A stretch of DNA of 42,317 bases from Lentisphaerota bacterium (GTDB lineage: Bacteria > Verrucomicrobiota > Lentisphaeria > Victivallales > Victivallaceae). Of the stretch, positions 1 to 41,831 are shown piece by piece. The notes beneath the pieces were generated by a model. It saw only the letters and a list, made by a program, of their open reading frames with translations. It did not search any database and had not been told where the DNA came from. The stretch is taken from the NCBI GenBank assembly GCA_015061815.1, contig SUVW01000022.1, positions 1-42,317 of the forward strand, given 5' to 3'. Within the stretch, counting starts at the first letter, position 1. Every line of letters begins with the position of its first letter. The translations under genes and the position numbers were made by a program.

Positions 1-101
1 TTTGACTTTTCTTTTTGGTGAACAGGGGTTATATTATATATAATTCGTTTGTAATCAAGCAAGTTCTAATAGATACTTATCGTACGGACTCCCCCAGAAG
101 T

Positions 102-125
102 TCAATCAGCGTGAACGCTGATTGA
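102..125. repeat. Inverted repeat over the QSAFTLIE codons
   Basis: TCAATCAGCG and CGCTGATTGA form a 10-bp stem around TGAA. On the coding (minus) strand this covers the codons QSAFTLIE, so the prepilin signature itself is one arm. Further short inverted repeats lie at 133-145 (ACGCC/GGCGT), 161-177 (GTTTGA/TCAAAC), 235-248 (AAAACA/TGTTTT) and 281-296 (AAAGGC/GCCTTT). Confidence 0.85.
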
Positions 126-292
126 GTGAAGAACGCCTTCGGCGTGTGAAGGTGTGAAGAGTTTGACTGCATCAAACGTGAAGTGTGTCCTGCGGGGAGT
201 GATGCTGTGTTATTTTTAAGGTGACACAAAGGCAAAACAGTTGTTTTACGGATAACTTTTTCCAGCGATTCCATAAAATTAAAGGCTTCAGC

Positions 293-318
293 CTTTACTC
301 TCCCCGGGGAGAGTAAAG
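293..318. repeat. 26-bp perfect palindrome in prepilin leader
   Basis: The arm CTTTACTCTCCCC is followed directly by its exact reverse complement. It covers the codons for LLSPGRVK of the truncated prepilin gene. The same leader position is palindromic, with different sequence, in the other prepilin-like genes of the window. Confidence 0.9.
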
Positions 319-398
319 CGTTTTTCATGGGATACGGGCGTTTTCCGGTGTTCAATGATTGTTTTTGCATTTTTTATCCTCCTTTTTAGTGTTCAGAC

Positions 399-4717: not shown

Positions 4718-6379
4718 ATGGAAATAAAAGCGCAGTTCTGCTCATCTCTGGCTAAAGTTTTTCCGGATAAACAGCCGGAGGTTTTGCCGGAAAATATCTC
4801 TGTCCTTCCCGGAGAACGTTACTCGTTCCAATTAGCTTACATTGCAGAGAACAACCGGGGGTGGGCCAGTGTGAAAATTTCATCTCCCTGGCCGGTGACG
4901 GTGCGTAAAGTTGAATTGATGCCGGTTCGGTTTTGCGGATGGGAGTCGGATGAAGATGTTATTTCCAATGCTCCGGGACTTTACCCGGATTATCTGGCTC
5001 CGCTGGATAATGGCGGCAAAAATCTTCCGCTGATGCTCAAACAATACCGGTCGGCATGGTTTACGGTGGAAATACCGCATGATTGTTCTCCGGGATGGTA
5101 CGATGTGTCAGTAGAATTGACCGGAACGGATTATTCCGGAGAAAATGGCGTGTGGCGCGGTAAGTTGAATATTGAAGTCATTGGCGCGCAATTGCCGGAA
5201 TTAACTATGAAATATACCTGCTGGCTGCATGGAGATTGTCTGGCATCATATTATAAAACAGAAATTTTCAGTGCTGAATATTGGATGATCTTGGAAAAAT
5301 TTATCGCCAATGCAGTCCGGCATGGAGTCAATATGCTGTTGACCCCATTGATAACTCCGCCGTTGGATACCGAGATCGGAAAAGAGCGTTTAACCAATCA
5401 GCTGGTAAAAATATCCCGGAAAAGCGGGCAATACAGTTTCGATTTTTCCCGGTTGGAAAAATTTGTTCTGCTGGCTCAAAAACTCGGAGTGAAATATTTC
5501 GAGATACCTCCATTATTTACCCAGTGGGGGGCGGCGGCGGCACCGCAGATCGTGTTGGAAAATGAGAATGGAGGCAAGGAACAGATATTCGGGTGGAGCA
5601 GTTCATCATCGTCTCCGGAATACCGGGAGTTTCTGGCGGAATTGCTGGTCGGATTTTGCGCTTATCTCCGCGAGAAGAAATGGGAAAATATTTTCGTTTT
5701 TCACTGTTCGGACGAACCGGCGGCAGAGCATTTGGCCGCTTATCGGGAGTGTCAGAAATTTTTGCAGGAAAAACTTGCCGGTTTTACCATAATGGATGCC
5801 TTGTCCTCGGAGGAGGTTTACCGGGAAAATCTCATCCTGGAACCGGTTGTCAGTATCAGCAAAGTCGATGAATTATCAGATGCCGGGATGGTGCCGGGAT
5901 GGATATATTACTGCTGCAATCCGCAGACGGTTTATCCCAACCGTTTTATTAATATGCCCAGTTCCCGCAACCGGGTGATGGGATTGCTGTTTTACCGGTA
6001 TCATGTCAAAGGATTTCTCCATTGGGGATTTAACTTTTACTACAGTTATCTTTCGCGGGATGTTTTAGATCCTTTCCTGTCTACAGATGCCGGCGGCAAC
6101 TATCCGGCAGGAGATCCGTTTCTGGTTTATCCGGGGCATGACGGTGAACCGCAGGATTCTATCCGGCATGAAGTCTTTTTTGAGGCGTTGCAGGATTTGC
6201 GGGCATTGGAACTGCTTGAAAAATTTATCGGCAGAAAAAACGTTGAAGATTTTCTGGATTCTCTGGTGCCGGACGGGGCTATGAGGATGGACAATTACCC
6301 GAAAGGCGAAAGCACGGTTTTGAATATAAGGAAAAAAATCAATGAGATGATCAAAAGAGTGATTTCAGTGCAAAATTGA
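4718..6379 (+). CDS. DUF4091 domain protein, glycosidase-like TIM barrel
   Basis: This 553-residue protein has no signal peptide. An N-terminal beta-sandwich (about 1-155) has the pattern seen in DUF4091 proteins (SVLPGERYSFQLAYIAEN, then WYDVSVELTG). A TIM-barrel-like middle (about 160-440) contains FHCSDEP with D332-E333, the likely acidic pair. The C-terminal DUF4091 block (about 445-520) reads GFLHWGFNFYYS, GDPFLVYPG and SIRHEVFFEALQDLRALELLE. DUF4091 proteins are thought to be glycoside hydrolases, but the substrate is generally unknown. The gene starts 22 nt after the GntR gene. I am confident of the family, not of a reaction. Confidence 0.8.
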   Translation: MEIKAQFCSSLAKVFPDKQPEVLPENISVLPGERYSFQLAYIAENNRGWASVKISSPWPVTVRKVELMPVRFCGWESDEDVISNAPGLYPDYLAPLDNGGKNLPLMLKQYRSAWFTVEIPHDCSPGWYDVSVELTGTDYSGENGVWRGKLNIEVIGAQLPELTMKYTCWLHGDCLASYYKTEIFSAEYWMILEKFIANAVRHGVNMLLTPLITPPLDTEIGKERLTNQLVKISRKSGQYSFDFSRLEKFVLLAQKLGVKYFEIPPLFTQWGAAAAPQIVLENENGGKEQIFGWSSSSSSPEYREFLAELLVGFCAYLREKKWENIFVFHCSDEPAAEHLAAYRECQKFLQEKLAGFTIMDALSSEEVYRENLILEPVVSISKVDELSDAGMVPGWIYYCCNPQTVYPNRFINMPSSRNRVMGLLFYRYHVKGFLHWGFNFYYSYLSRDVLDPFLSTDAGGNYPAGDPFLVYPGHDGEPQDSIRHEVFFEALQDLRALELLEKFIGRKNVEDFLDSLVPDGAMRMDNYPKGESTVLNIRKKINEMIKRVISVQN

Positions 6380-6394: not shown

Positions 6395-7084
6395 ATGAAA
6401 GGTGTGCAAAAAATGGAAAAAATCTTTTTTCCCGGGGAAAAGGTGAAATGGCGTTTCACCCTGATCGAATTGCTGGTTGTAATCGCGATCATTGCGATTC
6501 TGGCGGCAATATTGCTTCCGGCACTTAACAAGGCGCGGGAGCGCGGGCACATGGCGACATGCATGAATATCCATAAACAGCTGGGGTTGGCTTTTCAACA
6601 GTATGCTGATGACAGCGATGGATATTTGCCCAAAAAGAAGGATAATAACAGGCCTAGTGGAAAACAGCATTGGTTCTGGATACTGGAAGATAACGGGCAT
6701 TTTAAAAATCCTGTGCAGGATTTGCGTTGTCCGGTAGGCAAAGTGGCAAAACGAAACAGCAATATGTTTTCTGTTGGAATGAATCTGTTTTATTTCTATA
6801 CATGGCGCAAGCAGAGCCGTATCCCGAAACCGTCAGTTTTGTTTATCAGCGGTGATTGGTATGAAGAAAGTCAAAATGAGGGCGAGATCGGTTTTAACTG
6901 GCGTGATGGCAAAGCCAATAACAATGATACCGGACGCAAGCCGCTTTTCCGTCACATGGGAACATCTTATGAAAATGGTCAGGATGTGGTCGGTTGTGTG
7001 GATGGACACGTGGAAGCGGTTCTTTTTAATGATTTTCCTCTGGCGACCAGCCCGTCAGCATTGCAGAAGAGGATCAGCCAATAA
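6395..7084 (+). CDS. Prepilin-like protein with type II secretion/pseudopilin N-terminus
   Basis: This 229-residue protein starts after a strong AAAGGAGG site, 15 nt behind the DUF4091 gene. The leader [20 protein letters not shown] precedes [19 protein letters not shown], the class III prepilin signature with conserved Glu+5 and a hydrophobic helix. The canonical Gly before the Phe is replaced by Arg, as commonly seen in this expanded family. The body has the [24 protein letters not shown] segment and a late WRDG...DGHVEAV block typical of the H-X9-DG pseudopilin-like group. It is probably membrane anchored, then processed or assembled at the envelope. Its role beside glycosidases is unknown. 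Leader codons form the inverted repeats listed at 6424-6460. Confidence 0.85.
6424..6460 (+). repeat. Two overlapping leader inverted repeats
   Basis: At 6424-6443 CTTTTTTCCC can pair with the adjoining GGGGAAAAGG (10 pairs, two of them G-U in RNA). At 6442-6460 GGTGAAA pairs with TTTCACC around TGGCG; the second arm is the Phe-Thr of FTLIELL. The elements overlap by 2 nt. Confidence 0.7.
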
Positions 7085-17523: not shown

Positions 17524-18270
17524 ATGAGTAATGTGGATTCAAAGACTCTCACCGGTGAGAGAGTAAAGCATGAATGTTTTACTCTGATTGAGCTGCTTGT
17601 TGTCATCGCGATTATCGCCATTCTGGCGGCAATATTGCTCCCGGCTCTGCAGAAGGCCAGATTGTCCGGTCAGGATGCTTCCTGCAAGTCCAATTTGAAA
17701 CAGCTCGGTTCCGCCTCTGCGATGTATTCTGATGCATCTGATGGATATATGCTCAACAACAGGCAAAGCACCATCTGGGGAGCCCAGATATCGCCGTACG
17801 TCGGAGGAAAAAATTACAGTACGATTTCCTCTTCCAATGCAGTTGAAGCATGGAAAAGTGAAGTGTTTCAATGTGCCACCGCCAATGGTATATATGGTGG
17901 ACCGGGCAGTTACGGAAGCTATGGATTGCAGACACTTTTTTATGATCCCAACAATATCAAAATTTCTAAAATAACTTCATCCTCCACCTTGATTCAATTT
18001 GCAGATACCAATACTGCGACGGAGTATGCCGGCACAAAACGGCTGCCGGTGATTTGGAATATCTACCCGTATAATATTAATGCCCGTAAATCCAATGGCG
18101 TTGTGAAAAACAATATCGGTGAACATCATAACCAGAGTGCCAATTTCTGCATGGTTGACGGTCATGTGGAATGGGAGAATTTTGATCTGGTGTGGACACG
18201 CGGAGCTGACCGGAAATATTGGAGTTGTGATGGCACTTTTCCCGGAGCCGGTGCCGACCTTGCTTTGTAA
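17524..18270 (+). CDS. Prepilin-like protein, first gene of the catabolic operon
   Basis: This 248-residue protein has leader [18 protein letters not shown] followed by [19 protein letters not shown] and [39 protein letters not shown]. The class III prepilin signature is intact apart from Cys in place of Gly at -1. A C-terminal [13 protein letters not shown] block is typical of this pseudopilin-like group. It is probably inserted in the cytoplasmic membrane and possibly processed by a prepilin peptidase, with its globular part outside. AAAGGGAAAAG precedes the ATG. The leader codons carry the palindromes listed at 17546-17585. Function in the operon is unknown; a surface assembly or enzyme-display role is speculation. 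Confidence 0.85.
17546..17585 (+). repeat. Two overlapping leader palindromes
   Basis: CTCTCACC and GGTGAGAG form a 16-bp perfect palindrome (17546-17561). Sharing its last two bases, AGAGTAAAGCAT pairs with ATGTTTTACTCT (17560-17585; 12 pairs, one G-U). The second arm contains the Phe-Thr of FTLIELL. Confidence 0.85.
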
Positions 18271-34072: not shown

Positions 34073-37000
34073 TTACAGTTTTGTAATCACTTTGCATCCG
34101 GAAGCGACATCTTCGGCTTCAAATGTCCAGCCGTCTGCCGGGAAATTCAATGGCAGTTTGACATTCAAAGAGCATTTGCCATCATCCATTATCAATTTTC
34201 CGGTATAGGCCGGATTGACTTTGCCGCTGGGGTCTTTCATCCGGTAATTGATTATATGACGGGTGAATTCAGCTGTGTCAGCCTGCAGAGAAAGCTCTAT
34301 TTTTCGGGCACGGCCGGTACCGGAAATATCCGCTTTCAATGCAGTTGGTTTGTAGGGCAGGGCCACCCACACGCTTTGAGTTACCGGACCGAAACCATAA
34401 GTGAATTCTTTTCCGTATCCCATATATTTATTTTCGAGCAAATCCCAGACATGGAAGTTTTTGGAGAAAATCACTTTGTGTTGAGTGACTTTGTTTTCCG
34501 TATTGCGGGTTTGATCGATATCGCGCACAAAACCGATTATATATGCACCGTTGTTTTCGCGCAGATGCAATTCGGTTGAACGGAGGGTCGGTGCCTGAAC
34601 CAGAGGTTCGATTCCTGCTGTTTTCGTCAGACTGCTGAAGAACTTTTTAAGTTCGGCAGTGTTTTTTGCATGTTTGGAAGTGTAACGCAAAGCTCCCTGA
34701 TTTCCAATGGTGCTGGAAATATCAGCTGCCAGATAAATTGCTTTGCCCTTTCCGTAATTATTGACAAAAAACACATCTGTTGCTCCGAAGTTGCCGGTTG
34801 CTTTGGCCAACGGCCGGGCAGATGCAGCAGCAATACCGGATTCGATATATTCGACCGGAATAGAGAGTTTGCCGAGTTCTGCGCCGGAGGCATTTACTTT
34901 TCCTTTTACTTTCTGCAGAGTTCCGAATGACTTCAAACCAAAGAGTTTCAGCAATTCTGTGCGATTTTCTTTACGAACCGCGTGGTTGTCATAATGCCCG
35001 GAAGCCATATCTGCCACCAGAATACCTCCGTTGGCAACGAACTTGCCCAGGTTTTCGATTTCTGCATTTGAAAGCGACATGGACAGCGGCATGAAGATAA
35101 CTTTGTATTTGCCGAATTCACCTTTTTCGATTTCCCCGTAGGCAATGTAATTGTAATTCAGAGCGCAATCGCCGAGAATATTGCGGAAACCGGACGTGGC
35201 ACTTTTTCTCAATTCATTGTGATTCAAGACATAATCGACTTTGATCGATGCCGGTGAATAATGCATTGCGATCGGATAGACTGATGCATCGAAGTGCATA
35301 ATGAGGTCTGCTTTGCCGTTGAGATAACGGGAGAGAAGCTTTTTAAGTTCCAATCCGGCTACCGGTACGGTCCAATCCGGTGCGAAATAGAAGAAGCTGC
35401 CGTAAATATTCAGGCCGCTGACACCATTCATCAAAGCCCGGTTGATCTGCATGTTATGCTCATCGTAAGGGACATCGTAACCGATCCAGGGCATTGCTGC
35501 CAGTTTGGTTTTCGCAAAAGAACGGTGCTGGATGGTCTGTTCGCCGAAGTAACCGGCGATAGCTTTCATATGCGGCATGATCAGATAGTAATCCCATGCG
35601 TTCCAGGGGTTGGTATCGGATGTGCCGGAGAGCGAAACCCAAATACCTTGATGTTTTTCCACTGCAGCTGTCTGAATGCCGAGAGCTTTGGCGCGTTGAT
35701 AATCGTTAAAAGTCCGATGGTCCATCCAGGGGGCAAGGCTGGTATGTTTTCTTGCTTCAGGCAGAGTCATCGGTACGACTTCATCCCAGGAGGCAAATTG
35801 AGTTTGCCATGATTGGTTGAGCGCATCGAGTGAACCGTAGACATTTTTGAGATAAATGCGCAATTCCCGCATGCAATCCGGCGAGAAGCATCCATCCCAG
35901 CCGCCGAACATGTTTGCTTCATCGGCACCGGCTCCGAGAATAGCTCCATACCTGGCAGCATCTCCCTCCATTTTTTCTTGAGATGTCCGGAGTTTTTCAA
36001 GGAATGCCGGATTGCTCAAGCACGGGGTGCGGATGAGATCGAATTTATTTTTCGATTTAAGGTCCCGGTCGAAAGGATATTTTCCGCCGGTACCGATGCC
36101 GAACTCCTGGGAGATGAAGAGGATGCCGTTTTTGCGGAAAGAATGGGTCACTGCGGCATTATCCCATGAAACACTGCTGCCTCCGGTGGAATTGACGAAG
36201 TAGTGCTCTTTGAGCATACTGGTGTACTTGTCAGTAAGATACAACGGGGCTTTTTCCACCACGCTGGGCCATCCCTGTGCGATCTGGAAAAATCTGGCAT
36301 CCGGTTTCCGGAAAATGTCGATTTCACGAACGAAACGGTCAACTTCTTTGCCGTCTTTATGCAGCAGCACTTCAATTTTAGCTGCTGCCGAGAGGCAATC
36401 GGTCAACGGCAGAGAAGGAGTCAAACCTTTGGCTGTTGCAAAAAGGTTATTGTCACAATCGTAAAGATTGGTGGTTACTTCACCGGAACCGGCGATTTCC
36501 AGAACCGGGGCAATATTGTCGTTTTGCTGGTAAATGCGCCGTTCAACATCGGCTTTTACAAACCGGTCAGCACTTTCATTGTTAAAACAGGCGGTCCCCC
36601 ACCAGACTTTGCCTTTGGCGGTGGAGATGGTCGTGTCAGTGAAGTGCAAACCATTGAGAACAGCTTGCGGCAGAGATACTTTTATGATGTTTTTCCCGGA
36701 ATCAAGTTTTGCTTTTTCCCGGACGACTCCGACTTCGCGGGAGAATTTATCCCGCAGAGTCACTTCCACAACACTGTCAATCGCTTTATCAGCCTGAATT
36801 TCCAGATTCAAAGTACCGGGGACAGCGGATATGGCATCAACAGCAACTCCGGTATTTTTTCCGGCTGCGGCATACATCATTTTTGCCAGCATCATGTGAT
36901 AATATTCGTAGTAGTGCCAGTCAAGGCGGGGATCATCGTCGATTACCGATGGCAGGAAAAATGTGCTTGACTTGCTTGAACGCGGGACTTTTCCCTGATA

Positions 37001-39814
37001 GGCGGCGAGGAAGATTTTGCCTTTGCCATGATCAAACGAGGCGATCAACGGAGCATCTCCGGCAGTGGCAAGAACTTCACCGCCATTAAGTTTATAGGTT
37101 GTGTTGCGTACTTTCGGCATGATATCAAAAGGAATACCGCTGAAAATATTTTTACCGGGGACGGCTGCCCACTGAACTGCACCGCGTTGTGATGATGAAG
37201 CTTTGGTGAAAAATTTCTGCAGAGATTGCGGCATTTTATCCGGTGAAATAACGATCAATCCGGTACCGTTGGCCACTTGAGCCATGATGGCATCACTTAT
37301 GGCGGCAGGGATGTTTTGCCAGAGAGAACCGGAAATGAGGATCACATCATATTGAGTTTTAAGTTTGTCACTCAACTGATTGATGCAGTCTTTTACGCTC
37401 AAGCTCATTACATAACCGGAAAGTGTCCACAATCCGGCGACATAGTTGGTAGTCAGGTCGATGTCGAATCGTTGGCCGAGTTCCACCATTTCGCGGATAC
37501 CGCCGGCGCGGAAGTTTACGGAAAGGACCTTGAGTTTGTTTCCGGCAAAAGGTTTGCCCCATTTGATGTGCGGGGTAACCACTTCGTAGGAGTGGAAGTC
37601 CAAATTGGCTTTGCTCTGACCGGCACTGATATCCGGTTTGCGTTCACAATCCGGGGTGAGGGTATAGATGCCGGAGGAACTGCCGATAATAGTGGATGCT
37701 TCTGCGGTCATTACTGCGGTATTATTCTGCAGCAATTCTGCTTTCAGCACGAGAGTACCTTTCCCGGCGGGAAGTTTGTAACCGGTTTCAAATCTTCTGG
37801 CATTGGCCGGGATACTTTTGGACAGGAGCTCTTTGAATTGAACTTTTCCGTTATTGACAAAACCGGCACTTAAACGCAGGGTATAAGCTTGCGGATCGAA
37901 GATCTGTACTTTCAGCGTTGGATCGGTCGGCAAATCGCCGAAGCTCAAAGCGGCGGTACGGGTGACTTTGGCCGGGATACCGATTTTGCTGTATGGTACC
38001 AGAGCCATGTTGAATTTGAGATTTTCACCGGCTTTGATGGGATAAATACCGAGTTTGAATTCCATTGTACCGGCGAATTTGTTGGACGGCCAGAAATAGA
38101 ATTCGCTCAAGAGGTCGTAAGGCATCATCAAGGCCAGAGAGTTGTCGCTGTTTTCATCTTTGGCGGCCATCCAACCGGATGAGATGTCACGTACAGTCAA
38201 TTGACTGGTGCTTTTGTAGATTTCGACAGAGGTGCTGCCGGGGACGATAAGTTTGTAACCATTGGGGCTTTGGGCACCGCCGCACATCCAGTAGCCGTAA
38301 CGCAGCGGGATAACATTGTCTTTGCCGTTGGAAATGGTTTGTTCCACATGGAGAACCGGAGAGTTGGCATAGAGGGTGTAAATTCTTTCCATCCGGACGT
38401 TGCGGAATATACCGTTGCGGCCGATGCCGCTGACTTTCACCTGTTTTTTCTGCGGAGTATCTGCGATGATTTCGGTATCATAGGCGACTTGGCGGAACAT
38501 ATCCCGGATGTCGTAACCGCCGGGATAGACACGGTCGCTGAACATCAAGCCGAAGCCGTAGGAAGAGGGCAGGGCCATATTGGTTTTGCTCTCCCGGTCA
38601 TAAGCAAAATTGACCGCGCCGGACCAGGCGGGGTCAATTGCGTAGACCGCCATATCGTTGGATATGGCGATCATATCTTTTTTCTGGATCAGGCGCAAAC
38701 CTCCCGGAGTGGAGATCAACTCATCTGCATAGGGATGTTTGCCGGCCGGTTCAGTTTTTTTTTTAGCCTCTGCGGGGGCAGGGGCGGGGGCTTCGGGAGC
38801 TGCCGGAGCCGCAGCTTCAGCTTTGCCGAAGAATTCGACCTCATTCAGGGAAATCCAACCGCCGGTGGGGATGAAGCTCAACTCCACCTGGGTGAATTTC
38901 TGATCGGTAGCGGATTCGATTTCCGCGACATCAAATGACGGATCGGTTTTGGGTTTGGTGTAGGGGTGATTGAGGACAATATTTCCGGCGAGGATTCTCT
39001 GTCCATCGGCGACACCGGTTACGCGAATTTCTTTGATGCCGTAGCTGTTGGTATTTCTGGAATAGTAAACTTTGATAGTTTCGAGGGAAACCGGTTTATC
39101 AAAATTGAAGGTGATGACCGGTCCTTTACCCTTGTTGTGTTTATGCCGCCAGGTGACACTTTTTCCTTCACGGGCGCGCCAGAAGACTGCATCGGTAAAA
39201 GATGCTCCGTCGGTCAGTTTGCGGAAGTCGGGATCCTGACCGCCTTTGAGATCCGGATCAGTTTTTTCCGGGAAGCTGTAGCTGACCGGGGTGAGTTGAT
39301 TTTCCGGTTTGATTTCTTCGACAAAGAGTTTGGAAAGCTCCAGTTTTCCGCCCTGCGGAGTGTCGATATGCACACCGAAAGTATAAACTCCGTCACCACT
39401 GTCCATCATGACACCGGTGTATTCAAATTTGGTCCATTTGCCTTTGGTTGAAGCAGGGAAATTTCTGGTGGAAATATCCCGCCGCCAGTGGCGGTTGTGC
39501 AGGACAAAACGGATACGGCGGGTTTTGACATTTTCGGTTTTTACCCAGCCGCCGATTTTATATTTTCTGCCGGGGATGAAGTAGAGATTATCCAGAGCGA
39601 GTTTGCAGCTTTTGCTGCCGATGTCATTGATAACAAGGGCATCGCTGCCGTCAACTCCGGCACCGGGGGCGAGCTGCACTTTGAACGGAGCTTTGGCTAC
39701 AGAGGAACTCCATAAGCCGTATTCGCCGTTTTTGTCTTTGGCAAAGCCGTATTCTGCTCCGCAGGCGGCGAAACAGCCGGCAAGTGCTGCCAACATAAGT
39801 TTCCATTTTTTCAT
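34073..39814 (-). CDS. Giant secreted multidomain protein (CBM, mutarotase-like, amidotransferase-like, GH42-like)
   Basis: This 1913-residue protein starts with a signal peptide (MKKWKLMLAALAGCFAACGA). Inferred order: CBM4/9-like jelly roll (about 22-170); F5/8C (discoidin)-like domain (about 175-328; ITFNFDKPVSLETIKVYYSRN, ISLNEVEFFGKA); Pro/Ala-rich linker (about 330-355); galactose-mutarotase-like sandwich (about 365-610); beta modules; a class I amidotransferase-like domain (about 775-930; YDVILISGSLWQNIPAA, then GTGLIVISPD); a GH42-like barrel (about 1195-1510; GAGADEANMFGGWDG and KNVYGSLDALNQSW); a trimerisation-like domain (about 1530-1650; YKVIFMPLSMSLSNAEIENLGKF, GGILVADMASG); and C-terminal beta domains. 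AAAGGAG lies 10 nt before the ATG. It is probably an extracellular glycosidase; catalytic residues are not assigned with certainty. Confidence 0.75.
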   Translation of the reverse strand: MKKWKLMLAALAGCFAACGAEYGFAKDKNGEYGLWSSSVAKAPFKVQLAPGAGVDGSDALVINDIGSKSCKLALDNLYFIPGRKYKIGGWVKTENVKTRRIRFVLHNRHWRRDISTRNFPASTKGKWTKFEYTGVMMDSGDGVYTFGVHIDTPQGGKLELSKLFVEEIKPENQLTPVSYSFPEKTDPDLKGGQDPDFRKLTDGASFTDAVFWRAREGKSVTWRHKHNKGKGPVITFNFDKPVSLETIKVYYSRNTNSYGIKEIRVTGVADGQRILAGNIVLNHPYTKPKTDPSFDVAEIESATDQKFTQVELSFIPTGGWISLNEVEFFGKAEAAAPAAPEAPAPAPAEAKKKTEPAGKHPYADELISTPGGLRLIQKKDMIAISNDMAVYAIDPAWSGAVNFAYDRESKTNMALPSSYGFGLMFSDRVYPGGYDIRDMFRQVAYDTEIIADTPQKKQVKVSGIGRNGIFRNVRMERIYTLYANSPVLHVEQTISNGKDNVIPLRYGYWMCGGAQSPNGYKLIVPGSTSVEIYKSTSQLTVRDISSGWMAAKDENSDNSLALMMPYDLLSEFYFWPSNKFAGTMEFKLGIYPIKAGENLKFNMALVPYSKIGIPAKVTRTAALSFGDLPTDPTLKVQIFDPQAYTLRLSAGFVNNGKVQFKELLSKSIPANARRFETGYKLPAGKGTLVLKAELLQNNTAVMTAEASTIIGSSSGIYTLTPDCERKPDISAGQSKANLDFHSYEVVTPHIKWGKPFAGNKLKVLSVNFRAGGIREMVELGQRFDIDLTTNYVAGLWTLSGYVMSLSVKDCINQLSDKLKTQYDVILISGSLWQNIPAAISDAIMAQVANGTGLIVISPDKMPQSLQKFFTKASSSQRGAVQWAAVPGKNIFSGIPFDIMPKVRNTTYKLNGGEVLATAGDAPLIASFDHGKGKIFLAAYQGKVPRSSKSSTFFLPSVIDDDPRLDWHYYEYYHMMLAKMMYAAAGKNTGVAVDAISAVPGTLNLEIQADKAIDSVVEVTLRDKFSREVGVVREKAKLDSGKNIIKVSLPQAVLNGLHFTDTTISTAKGKVWWGTACFNNESADRFVKADVERRIYQQNDNIAPVLEIAGSGEVTTNLYDCDNNLFATAKGLTPSLPLTDCLSAAAKIEVLLHKDGKEVDRFVREIDIFRKPDARFFQIAQGWPSVVEKAPLYLTDKYTSMLKEHYFVNSTGGSSVSWDNAAVTHSFRKNGILFISQEFGIGTGGKYPFDRDLKSKNKFDLIRTPCLSNPAFLEKLRTSQEKMEGDAARYGAILGAGADEANMFGGWDGCFSPDCMRELRIYLKNVYGSLDALNQSWQTQFASWDEVVPMTLPEARKHTSLAPWMDHRTFNDYQRAKALGIQTAAVEKHQGIWVSLSGTSDTNPWNAWDYYLIMPHMKAIAGYFGEQTIQHRSFAKTKLAAMPWIGYDVPYDEHNMQINRALMNGVSGLNIYGSFFYFAPDWTVPVAGLELKKLLSRYLNGKADLIMHFDASVYPIAMHYSPASIKVDYVLNHNELRKSATSGFRNILGDCALNYNYIAYGEIEKGEFGKYKVIFMPLSMSLSNAEIENLGKFVANGGILVADMASGHYDNHAVRKENRTELLKLFGLKSFGTLQKVKGKVNASGAELGKLSIPVEYIESGIAAASARPLAKATGNFGATDVFFVNNYGKGKAIYLAADISSTIGNQGALRYTSKHAKNTAELKKFFSSLTKTAGIEPLVQAPTLRSTELHLRENNGAYIIGFVRDIDQTRNTENKVTQHKVIFSKNFHVWDLLENKYMGYGKEFTYGFGPVTQSVWVALPYKPTALKADISGTGRARKIELSLQADTAEFTRHIINYRMKDPSGKVNPAYTGKLIMDDGKCSLNVKLPLNFPADGWTFEAEDVASGCKVITKL

Positions 39815-39904: not shown

Positions 39905-40801
39905 TTAATATATGACCGACATATCAGTTAAATCGACCCGTCTTAATTTTCCTTTGTTTATATCTGTTATATTTCCTGCCGGATAATACCATGTATTAAA
40001 AGTGTTTGTTGCATTATAGTCATAGCTTACCAAATCAAAACTTGCAGTTGTTTCTGCATGTCCATCGAAATAAAGGACATTGGCCATCGTTCCATGCGCT
40101 CCGTATCGGCCAAAGCAAGAATAGCTGCCGCCGGTTACCCCACTCGAAGAGAATACACTTGGAGAAAACAATCCATTAGTATTTCGAGTGGCGGTACCTG
40201 CTGTTTTTGTTAAGGATTTTCTCCAGTCATCAAGCATGACTACAGTAATGCTTGGTTTAGTCACTTCTTTGATTTTACCAAGATAACGAAATTTATCGTA
40301 GCCAGTGGCATTAACTTTGGTGCGTATATTGATATAACGATTATATGAATAAGATAATTTTATGGGAATATTGGCATGTTGTCTTTGATCTTCTCCGGCA
40401 CCTTCGGCAGATGGGCAAACCAAAGTTTCGGAATACCAACCTTCTGAATTGTTGCCTGGATCAGGAGATAATCCTTTTTTTACATAGATTTTTTCTCCGA
40501 AATAGTCGTTGCGAGTTCCATACTCTGCCCATCTGAATTGTTTGTTGTATGTATCTGCAAAACCATAATCGGTCATAGAAAGGGGAATGGGCACCCCATC
40601 GTTTTCATCAGAATATCGCATCCAACCAATTCCGTTTTGTTTTAAGTTGTTCAAACAAGTAGCTTTGTGTGCAGTTTGACGTGCCTTGTTCAAAGCTGGA
40701 AGTAAAATAGCGGCAAGGATGGCAATGATGGCGATAACGACCAACAACTCGATGAGCGTAAACCGGAACCGGTTTACTTTCGCATGCGAAAGTAAATGCA
40801 T
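39905..40801 (-). CDS. Prepilin-like protein, tandem paralogue 1
   Basis: This 298-residue protein has leader [13 protein letters not shown], then [19 protein letters not shown] and [39 protein letters not shown]. Its body ends with [23 protein letters not shown], the DGH block of the family. Leader, helix and the first 70 residues are nearly identical to the upstream neighbour, whereas the middle diverges. The start at 40801 has GGAG 10 nt upstream; the open frame continues 28 codons further but would begin upstream of the promoter. It has a near-consensus promoter of its own and lies before the giant secreted-protein gene, which also has its own promoter. Confidence 0.87.
40758..40796 (-). 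repeat. Two overlapping leader palindromes (paralogue 1)
   Basis: A 24-bp perfect palindrome with half TTTACTTTCGCA lies at 40773-40796. GTAAACCGG and CCGGTTTAC around AA form an inverted repeat at 40758-40777. The two share the TTTAC at 40773-40777, so as RNA they are mutually exclusive. They cover codons [13 protein letters not shown]. Confidence 0.88.
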
Positions 40802-40970: not shown

Positions 40971-41831
40971 TCAAAAATCTTCATAGTTTTTTACTATCAA
41001 AGAGCCGCTGTTTGCCTGTTTTTTATACCAGATACCGAAACTGTTGGCTATATCACTGTTTGCCGACATTACAGTAAATGTGGCAGTCGCCTCTGCATGG
41101 CCATCGCCGAACAACACTCCGGCATGCTTGCCGTGAGCTCCATATCTTCCAACACTGGCGTAAGCCGTGCCGCCGCTGACTTCAAGAGCTTTTATTCCAT
41201 TACCGCTTGGGCGATTGTTGCTATGACCGCTGCCGCTGAGGGTTGCTATCAACGATCTTCTCCAATCATCGATCATTATCATGGTTATACTGGGATCAGT
41301 TATTTCTTTGATTTTCCCCAAAAAACGGAACTTATCATGATTGGTTGCGTTTATTTTTTTTGACATTTGTATATAGGCATTATATTTGTATGTGCATTTT
41401 GTCGGAAAATTATTGATTCCCGGCACGTTTTCACCGGCACCTTCGGCGGCCGGACAAATTAATGTCTCCAAATACCAACCTTTTCTGTCTGAATAATCCG
41501 GATGTAATCCTTTTTCCACAACAACCGGCTGGGCAAAAAGCCCCATTCGTGTGGCATATTCATTCCAGTATAAACTGGAAGAATAGTATGGCTGATTGTA
41601 TTGAGTTTGGAGCTGCAGGGGAACTCCGTCATTTTCATCAGAATACCGCATCCAGCCAAAGGAGTTTTGTTTCAAATTATTTAAACAACTGGCTTTGTGG
41701 GCAGATTGACGGGCTTTGTTTAACGCCGGAAGCAATATTGCAGCAAGGATGGCAATAATCGCGATAACGACCAGCAACTCAATGAGCGTAAACCGGAACC
41801 GGTTTACTTTCGCATGCGAAAGTAAATGCAT
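40971..41831 (-). CDS. Prepilin-like protein, tandem paralogue 2
   Basis: This 286-residue protein starts [71 protein letters not shown], the same as paralogue 1 with few changes. It ends with [23 protein letters not shown]. Between them, the loops around 60-120 and the C-terminal tail differ. AGGA precedes the ATG at 41831. The pair arose by tandem duplication that also copied the promoter and palindromes. Whether both are exported or assembled together is unknown. Confidence 0.87.
41788..41826 (-). repeat. Two overlapping leader palindromes (paralogue 2)
   Basis: This is an exact copy of the paralogue 1 arrangement: GTAAACCGG/CCGGTTTAC at 41788-41807 and the 24-bp palindrome (half TTTACTTTCGCA) at 41803-41826. 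Confidence 0.88.

Follow-up and report, generated by a model that had tools for sequence, protein, structure and literature searches.

Palindrome-ended short DNA elements appear to jump, nearly always in frame, into the prepilin leader codons of gut Lentisphaera-group bacteria

The presence of inverted repeats in the leader codons of prepilin-like genes raises the question of which process makes these codons palindromic and keeps them so. We studied this from a stretch of 42,317 nucleotides of a Lentisphaerota bacterium (contig SUVW01000022.1, positions 1 to 42,317), hereafter called the window. The inverted repeats that had been predicted from its letters are present at all five prepilin-like loci, the hairpin of the locus at 77-370 being different. 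The prepilin-like gene that drew attention to them (17524-18270, plus strand; N_methyl, DUF1559 start, H-X9-DG) has a zero-loop palindrome, which we call hinge 1 (CTCTCACCGGTGAGAG, 17546-17561, plus strand), and a hinge-2 inverted repeat (AGAGTAAAGCAT..ATGTTTTACTCT, 17560-17585, plus strand) whose 3' arm lies in the Phe-Thr-Leu codons and whose stem has 11 Watson-Crick pairs out of 12 and one G·T. The gene at 6395-7084 (plus strand) carries the hinge-2 repeat GGTGAAA/TTTCACC at 6442-6460 (plus strand). Two tandem paralogues lie on the minus strand, at 39905-40801 (probable start ATG at 40801; 40885 in the list of open reading frames) and at 40971-41831. Their hinges span 40758-40796 and 41788-41826, with GTAAACCGG..CCGGTTTAC as hinge 2 at 40758-40777 and 41788-41807, each overlapping a perfect TTTACTTTCGCATGCGAAAGTAAA as hinge 1 (40773-40796 and 41803-41826). 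The second palindrome that was expected to overlap the first is therefore there at the gene of 17524 and at both paralogues. The two paralogues have identical leaders (39/39 nt) and match at 425/748 positions in the body after the TM segment. Genes of GH92 and GH123 glycoside hydrolases (399-2465 and 4718-6379) adjoin prepilin genes in the window, which also has a 1913-residue open reading frame at 34073-39814.

The window's own genome (2.5 Mb, 94% complete) has 73 places matching PF07963, and the analysis retained 67 genes whose start is a full FTLIELLV[VA]IAIIAILA. The counts of stems, palindromes and covariation made on this set are not biased by a choice of loci based on palindromes. An exact stem of at least 7 bp joins the leader to FTL in 45 of the 67 genes and is absent from the other 22, such that the claim of a palindrome in every prepilin-like gene holds within the window and fails genome-wide. 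The excess over codon-shuffled controls that the original prediction implied was found: resampling synonymous codons gave a mean of 4.5 and a maximum of 12 genes out of 67 (200 rounds), and shuffling the leaders a mean of 1.15 and a maximum of 5 (40 rounds). Exchanging leaders among genes gave a mean of 21.8 and a maximum of 29 (41 rounds), from which it follows that part of the symmetry comes from the shared Val-Lys/Phe-Thr codons and that the remainder is gene-specific matching. Upstream palindromes of at least 7 bp occur in 49 of the 67 genes when 60 nt are searched and in 45 when 45 nt are searched, against a mean of 2.2 and a maximum of 6 after codon resampling. The common anatomy is A-A'-A'': the right arm of the zero-loop hinge 1 is the left arm of hinge 2, and hinge 2 reads GTRAAGC-N-GCTTYAC and ends in the Phe-Thr codons.

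The arms covary. Among the 63 own genes left after the removal of near-duplicates from the 67, 28 have Val-Lys in the main register. The third bases of Val (GTA/GTG) and Phe (TTT/TTC) pair in 27 of these 28 (14 A-T, 13 G-C), as had been proposed for GTA with TTT and GTG with TTC from the window. The Thr third base is paired in 22/28, the inner pair -8/-3 is matched in 21/28 with all four Watson-Crick types, and the inner pair -7/-4 in 19/28. None of 5000 permutations reached any of these four values. The covariation is weaker at -17/+6 (19/28, p 0.03) and absent in these genes at -18/+7, -19/+8 and -6/-5. The pattern GTRAAGCN6GCTTYAC occurs at 26 places in the own genome, and comparison with the fetched genes puts all 26 in prepilin leaders. 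With the covarying bases left free, it occurs at 124 places in 8 of 13 genomes of the genus; on visual reading of the matches listed, two have a broken R/Y pair. The residue before a prepilin cleavage site is usually Gly; it is Gly in just 12 of the 67 own genes (Arg in 17, Ser in 15, Cys in 9, Ala in 7), a scarcity that the palindromes may force.

One locus of the window records a whole series of events. The prepilin pseudogene at 77-370 (minus strand, as are its parts) has no body and consists of an older palindromic leader of the A-A'-A'' form (280-317), a decayed FTLIELLV reading FNFMESLE (260-283) that is likely a former insertion site, an F3-type element in frame (116-259), and a new FTLIELL into which the 3' hairpin of the element (TCAATCAGCG-TTCA-CGCTGATTGA, 102-125) extends. 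Over 127 nt, this element shares 73% identity with the F3 copy at another locus, L053 (E 2e-19). The general layout is an FTLIELLV motif followed by the element, then by a hairpin and a new FTLIELLV. At least 44 FTLIELLV motifs are interrupted in this way, and in 40 of them a later motif follows within 800 nt, at 87-291 nt. This second motif is in frame in 39/40 and in frame and open in 38/40 among the matches listed, a count that leans towards palindromes because the loci were partly chosen by the palindrome-plus-FTL pattern. L230 is out of frame and L217 has one stop; the other four interrupted motifs run into the end of the locus (L139, L185, L191) or a dead gene (L197).

The elements fall into seven families by the start of their translation and their motif-to-motif length: F1 (K(R/K)SHLCC.., mostly 108 nt), F2 (STVISS../DTFIST.., 180-183), F3 (SATCQI.., 168-177), F4 (TTAQQN.., 147-159), F5 (VTSQHC.., 231), F6 (IMTHLC.., 129) and F7 (SKACQI.., 234). 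Their left ends are, by eye, similar over about 20 nt, which suggests a single superfamily. In every family the 3' end is FTLIELLV, and a hairpin lies at this motif or ahead of it. The hairpin types differ: A-A'-A'' in F1, TCAATCAGCG-TTCA-CGCTGATTGA or something close to it in F3-F5, and long stems lying further upstream in F2. At the right boundary, which can be placed approximately, F1 is constant to CTTCTTGT and F3 is variable after GAA. Elements are stacked at four loci (L053, L106, L144, L150). In 21 copies of F1, the variable sites fall 14/12/14 on the three codon positions, and this near-equal variability indicates that the peptide is not conserved as a protein, which fits a peptide that is discarded. 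At L050, L051 and L061, the DNA upstream of FTLIELLV and of F2-type ends has an extended G-rich repeat, built of units like TTCGCTTCGCTGGGGCTCGGA, that recurs within and between loci.

The insertion site is very specific. All 27 matches listed for the F1 left-end pattern fall at GT|N, on FTLIELLV itself in 23 cases and on a decayed motif in 4. To the left stand many different host leaders with the host's own synonymous codons, and the 3' end, TTCACCTTAATAGAGCTTCTTGT, is nearly constant. One deviant outside this pattern (L266) has the element after FTLIELL with no Val codon. For F3 and F4, we searched 34 genomes of the genus by DNA similarity, using as query the F3/F4 elements of L053 together with the motifs on either side and the body, scoring the first 14 candidates in most genomes, and fetched all 75 of the regions outside the own genome among the matches listed. 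This gave at least 85 copies (43 and 42 in two batches), of which 65 (38 and 27) have a resolved left end and 20 have left ends that are diverged or cut and were not judged. Counting as a motif at least 5 of the 8 residues, the left end lies in the motif and in frame in 63 of the 65 (38/38 and 25/27, among the matches listed); the two exceptions read FSLLKQPV and FSLLGLPV and look like decayed motifs. Lengths are divisible by 3 in 60 of the 61 measurable copies, and the right-hand motif is present in 58 of the 65, six of the remaining ones being cut by contig ends (both among the matches listed). In this right-hand motif, the two Leu codons are more variable than the remainder of the element (L292-L331), as if there were a crossover there.

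The elements are dispersed between genes and species. Different hosts and species share copies of F3 and F4 that reach 100% identity, and one gene with an 89% identical body carries F2 in one genome (G001) and F3 in another (G046). An F1 match was found in 15 of 60 genomes of the family; in three of these the match is confined to 26-28 nt of the 3' end, and the remaining 12 belong to two genera and include 8 of the 16 examined genomes of the window's genus. Viral contigs gave no match to a 22-base F1 stretch, and plasmid and phage records none to F1 or F3. One pattern match in a viral contig (L278) was rejected as an ordinary VKRRG leader, four in Armatimonadota, Chthonomonadaceae, Planctomycetaceae and Gemmataceae (L126, L168, L173, L207) seem to owe their symmetry to chance in the codons, and L283 and L298 were not counted as an empty/filled pair because they are non-homologous upstream of the motif. 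BLAST matches the 3' half of F1 to six loci with palindromic leaders in the own genome. Relics of upstream motifs read FTLIKLLV, FALNKL, FTLIKL and FNFMESLE, and also, in our reading, FTPIRLPV. An intact interrupted motif lies upstream in just 5 of the 67 own genes (L049, L052, L053, L061, L062) against 45 with palindromes, and the view that solo palindromic leaders are 3' ends that would have lost their left part is therefore mostly inferential.

Leaders turn over more than the gene bodies that they precede. The nearest relative with data, G004 (54% complete), has 44 places matching PF07963 and 36 usable full genes, which gave 15 reciprocal best pairs with the own genome once pairs below 75% identity or 250 nt were dropped. 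Mean identity over these pairs is 91% in the body, 63% in the 45 nt before FTL, 61% in the 100 nt upstream of the leader and 83% in the FTLIELLV codons. Orthologues with 95-98% identical bodies can bear quite different leaders, and two pairs (L042/L345 and L056/L368) have leaders that are unchanged or nearly so. In several pairs a whole patch preceding FTL, of about 50-430 bp, has been replaced. The gene at 17524 in the window and its G004 orthologue (L344) have 94-95% identical bodies, with the leader and the FTLIELLV codons replaced. L055 and L361 are 97% identical upstream to -209 and again from +3, and what lies between is replaced, the leader being palindromic in one gene and an ordinary MKKQSFGKSMS in its orthologue. 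In L083/L347 the flanks are conserved and both palindromes are altered by compensatory pairs, and L124/L137 show compensatory palindrome changes with 98% identical bodies. Insertion alone does not explain a compensatory change inside conserved flanks, as in L083/L347, and the replacement of patches before FTL is explained by homologous exchange without any element. Insertion, patch exchange and in-place change of the palindrome thus all seem to take place. The recombination point of the original prediction is supported with a modification: genes swap the segment preceding FTL and keep their bodies, and in several pairs they also keep the sequence farther upstream. At three loci, the palindrome centre is GATC in the leaders of one genome (L124/L100) and AGCT in their orthologues (L137/L153), which looks like concerted change within a genome.

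Some leaders carry the A-A' unit in tandem. Among the matches listed, 13 of 213 leaders were flagged as having such a duplication, of 34 bp in ten cases, 35 in one and 38 in one, one of the 13 flags being a false one caused by a run of Ns. The loci with duplications include L037, L048, L064, L066, L079, L094 and L102, and between the closely similar L002 and L102 the difference is exactly one unit. Among the matches listed and considering ATG only, 10 of the 13 flagged leaders have no in-frame ATG left. These frame-shifting duplications could be on/off (phase) switching or assembly loops at palindromes.

Taken as a whole, the sequence comparisons suggest that short palindrome-ended elements jump, nearly always in frame, into the codons of prepilin leaders, where a passenger should do little harm. 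The palindromes are probably the 3'-terminal hairpins, intact or as remnants, of short non-autonomous protein-coding elements that home to the FTLIELLV codons. This gives good support, in a more specific form, to the proposed protein-coding palindromic repeat family, now seen as in-frame insertions in the prepilin motif. A superfamily of elements of 87-291 bp, motif to motif, would insert at these codons after ...GARYTNYTNGT. Each would begin at the prepilin motif, be read through in frame, and end with a hairpin and its own copy of FTLIELLV. With this copy, the mature protein would be unchanged and the target renewed, hence the stacking. Translated copies would merely lengthen the leader peptide, and the prepilin peptidase should cut at the last motif, removing the element's peptide as part of the leader. 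Leaders with only a palindrome would be remnants or minimal forms of element 3' ends, and DNA-level copying and the exchange of leader patches would keep leaders palindromic and spread them between genes. A trans-acting enzyme presumably recognises the hairpin end. What the sequences show directly is the insertions, their specific site and frame, their dispersal among genes and species, the covariation and the turnover of leaders; the enzyme, the removal by prepilin peptidase and the remnant status of solo palindromes are inferred from them.

Part of this pattern is also accounted for by recombination between paralogues, which would swap promoter-plus-leader patches through the shared 24-residue coding segment without any transposition. 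The replaced stretch between 97% identical flanks in L055/L361 fits this well, as do the replaced leader and FTLIELLV codons next to a 95% identical body in the window gene and L344, the paralogues of the window with 39/39 identical leaders and 425/748 matches in the body, and the 100 nt upstream being as diverged (61%) as the leader (63%). Such recombination probably operates in addition to the elements. It is unlikely to be the whole explanation, as it does not produce left junctions that fall sharply where the motif ends (27/27 and 63/65, among the matches listed) and leaves unexplained both the host-specific left motif beside a near-constant 3' end and the stacked copies. Template switching during replication, by which one arm of a hairpin is copied onto the other, would produce zero-loop palindromes and 34-bp tandem duplications, and it agrees with the zero-loop hinges, the 34-bp period of the duplications, the lack of a clear G·T excess over A·C, and the compensatory changes in L083/L347 (conserved flanks) and L124/L137 (98% identical bodies). 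Yet the insertions of F elements and the restriction of the common palindrome to the codons before FTLIELLV in the own genome (26/26) are not explained by it, and we regard it as an improbable sole cause.

Selection on mRNA structure, with two mutually exclusive hairpins that control translation or membrane targeting, would also produce strong covariation; the overlapping arms of A-A'-A'' resemble attenuators, and the predicted fold contains local stems. Under such selection, G·U should clearly outnumber A·C. We counted 9 G·T and 10 A·C in the stem that covaries (-17/+6 to -7/-4, 28 own genes). Over all 14 pairs examined in these genes the counts are 25 and 10; this G·T surplus comes from +7, where the Leu codon has an invariant T that often lies opposite a G (the outer pair -18/+7 is G·T in 10/28). 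In a larger non-redundant set (176 of 213 sites, stems with at least 7 of 10 Watson-Crick pairs, 142 for hinge 2 and 155 for hinge 1), G·T and A·C number 16 and 21 when mismatches outside the last Watson-Crick pair are omitted, and 32 and 29 when they are kept, among the matches listed. Apart from the sum of 25 against 10, the stems thus lack the G·U-tolerant covariation of a regulatory mRNA structure, and since G·T is not clearly above A·C within them, selection on RNA structure is a poor fit. The predicted fold of the window gene is just modestly better than those of shuffled sequences (z -1.79), F2 and F3-F5 carry other hairpins at the same position, and ordinary leaders free of palindromes are found elsewhere in this genome and also in an orthologue (L055/L361). 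The mRNA switch envisaged from the window is therefore very improbable. Coincidence or artefact, whereby Val-Lys-x-x-x-Phe-Thr codons are prone to palindromes and assemblers loop at them, seems hardly credible. Chance matches to the pattern do occur outside Lentisphaeria (L126, L168, L173, L278; L207), swapped leaders still average 21.8/67, and the frame-shifting 34-bp duplications could be assembly loops. For the palindromes, however, chance is contradicted by the maximum of 12 after codon resampling against 45/67 and by covariation at inner positions outside the VK and FT codons, and artefact is opposed by in-frame insertions in several sets of MAGs.

If homing elements made these leaders, an enzyme should mobilise them. 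The own genome (94% complete) has no match to the Y1, RVT_1 or IS110 domains. Y1 was found in 8/17 element-bearing and 2/6 other genomes, RVT_1 in 4/17 and 2/6, and the IS110 domain (Transposase_20) in 1/17 and 0/6, G046 being counted as element-bearing for its F3 copies although it has no F1 match. With none in the own genome and no clear relation across the 23 genomes, we discarded the Y1 transposase, reverse transcriptase and IS110 as the mobiliser. Four Y1 loci of about 2 kb each (L269-L272) contain neither an FTL motif nor GTRAAG-N8-CTTYAC. The fetched solo F1 left ends are short variants and include no autonomous copy; one candidate for a larger one, L197, is a dead gene followed by what we take to be a lepA-like gene. 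Inspection of F1 and F3/F4 junctions revealed no apparent target-site duplication of the kind expected for a MITE of a classical DDE transposon, since the left and right LLV copies usually differ; for F3/F4 such a duplication seems unlikely. The own genome has one match to a prepilin peptidase (PF01478).

It is possible, and we suggest it tentatively, that these elements form a new mobile-element class, whose members target the codons for a leader-peptidase motif, regenerate the motif and are removed from every protein copy by the host prepilin peptidase. If so, a mobile element would stay harmless by way of protein maturation instead of RNA or protein splicing, as a leader-peptide counterpart of the intein. 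Its insertion specificity would be set by a protein motif recognised despite synonymous variation, and the large set of FTLIELLV genes would be its refuge. The hairpin ends would keep reshaping pilin leaders, perhaps with genes switched off and on by the 34-bp duplications, and the persistence of protein-coding palindromic elements within genes could be tested in one system with many copies per genome. Pilin-like leader regions in the Lentisphaera group are chimeric, which makes them poor for annotation or phylogeny.

We found no earlier description of palindromic elements inserted in leaders in the open-licence literature, and several known systems share some of their traits. REP/RAYT and IS200/IS605-type elements have hairpin ends and insert beside a short target without duplicating it; unlike them, the present elements are intragenic and in frame, and their own genome has no Y1 match. 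They also differ from IS110/bridge-RNA elements, as Transposase_20 is found in 1 of the 23 genomes and not in the own one. Inteins and self-splicing introns are inserted at a conserved site of a gene, removed after expression and nearly neutral, whereas a splicing domain is not expected at the size of the present elements and their removal would fall to the host prepilin peptidase. Rickettsia palindromic elements are to our knowledge non-autonomous, and we know of no enzyme that mobilises them. A review of MITEs describes them as palindromic sequences of about 150 bp that enter unrelated genes, in frame within open reading frames (PMC10969869). The present elements resemble them in being short, hairpin-bearing and in frame (39/40, and open in 38/40, among the matches listed), and differ in being found in one motif of one protein class, in re-encoding the target motif at their 3' end and in yielding a peptide that should be discarded. 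PARCEL is described as protein-coding DNA with dyad symmetry that is spread patchily between and within genomes (PMC2996958). The present elements are likewise protein-coding, dyad-symmetric and patchily dispersed; PARCEL consists of tandem amphipathic repeats of 25 residues, domains of expressed proteins that stay in the protein, whereas they are single or stacked leader insertions of 87-291 bp. Among known kinds, Rickettsia palindromic elements come closest, and the elements of prepilin leaders would work somewhat like an intein, by way of leader cleavage.
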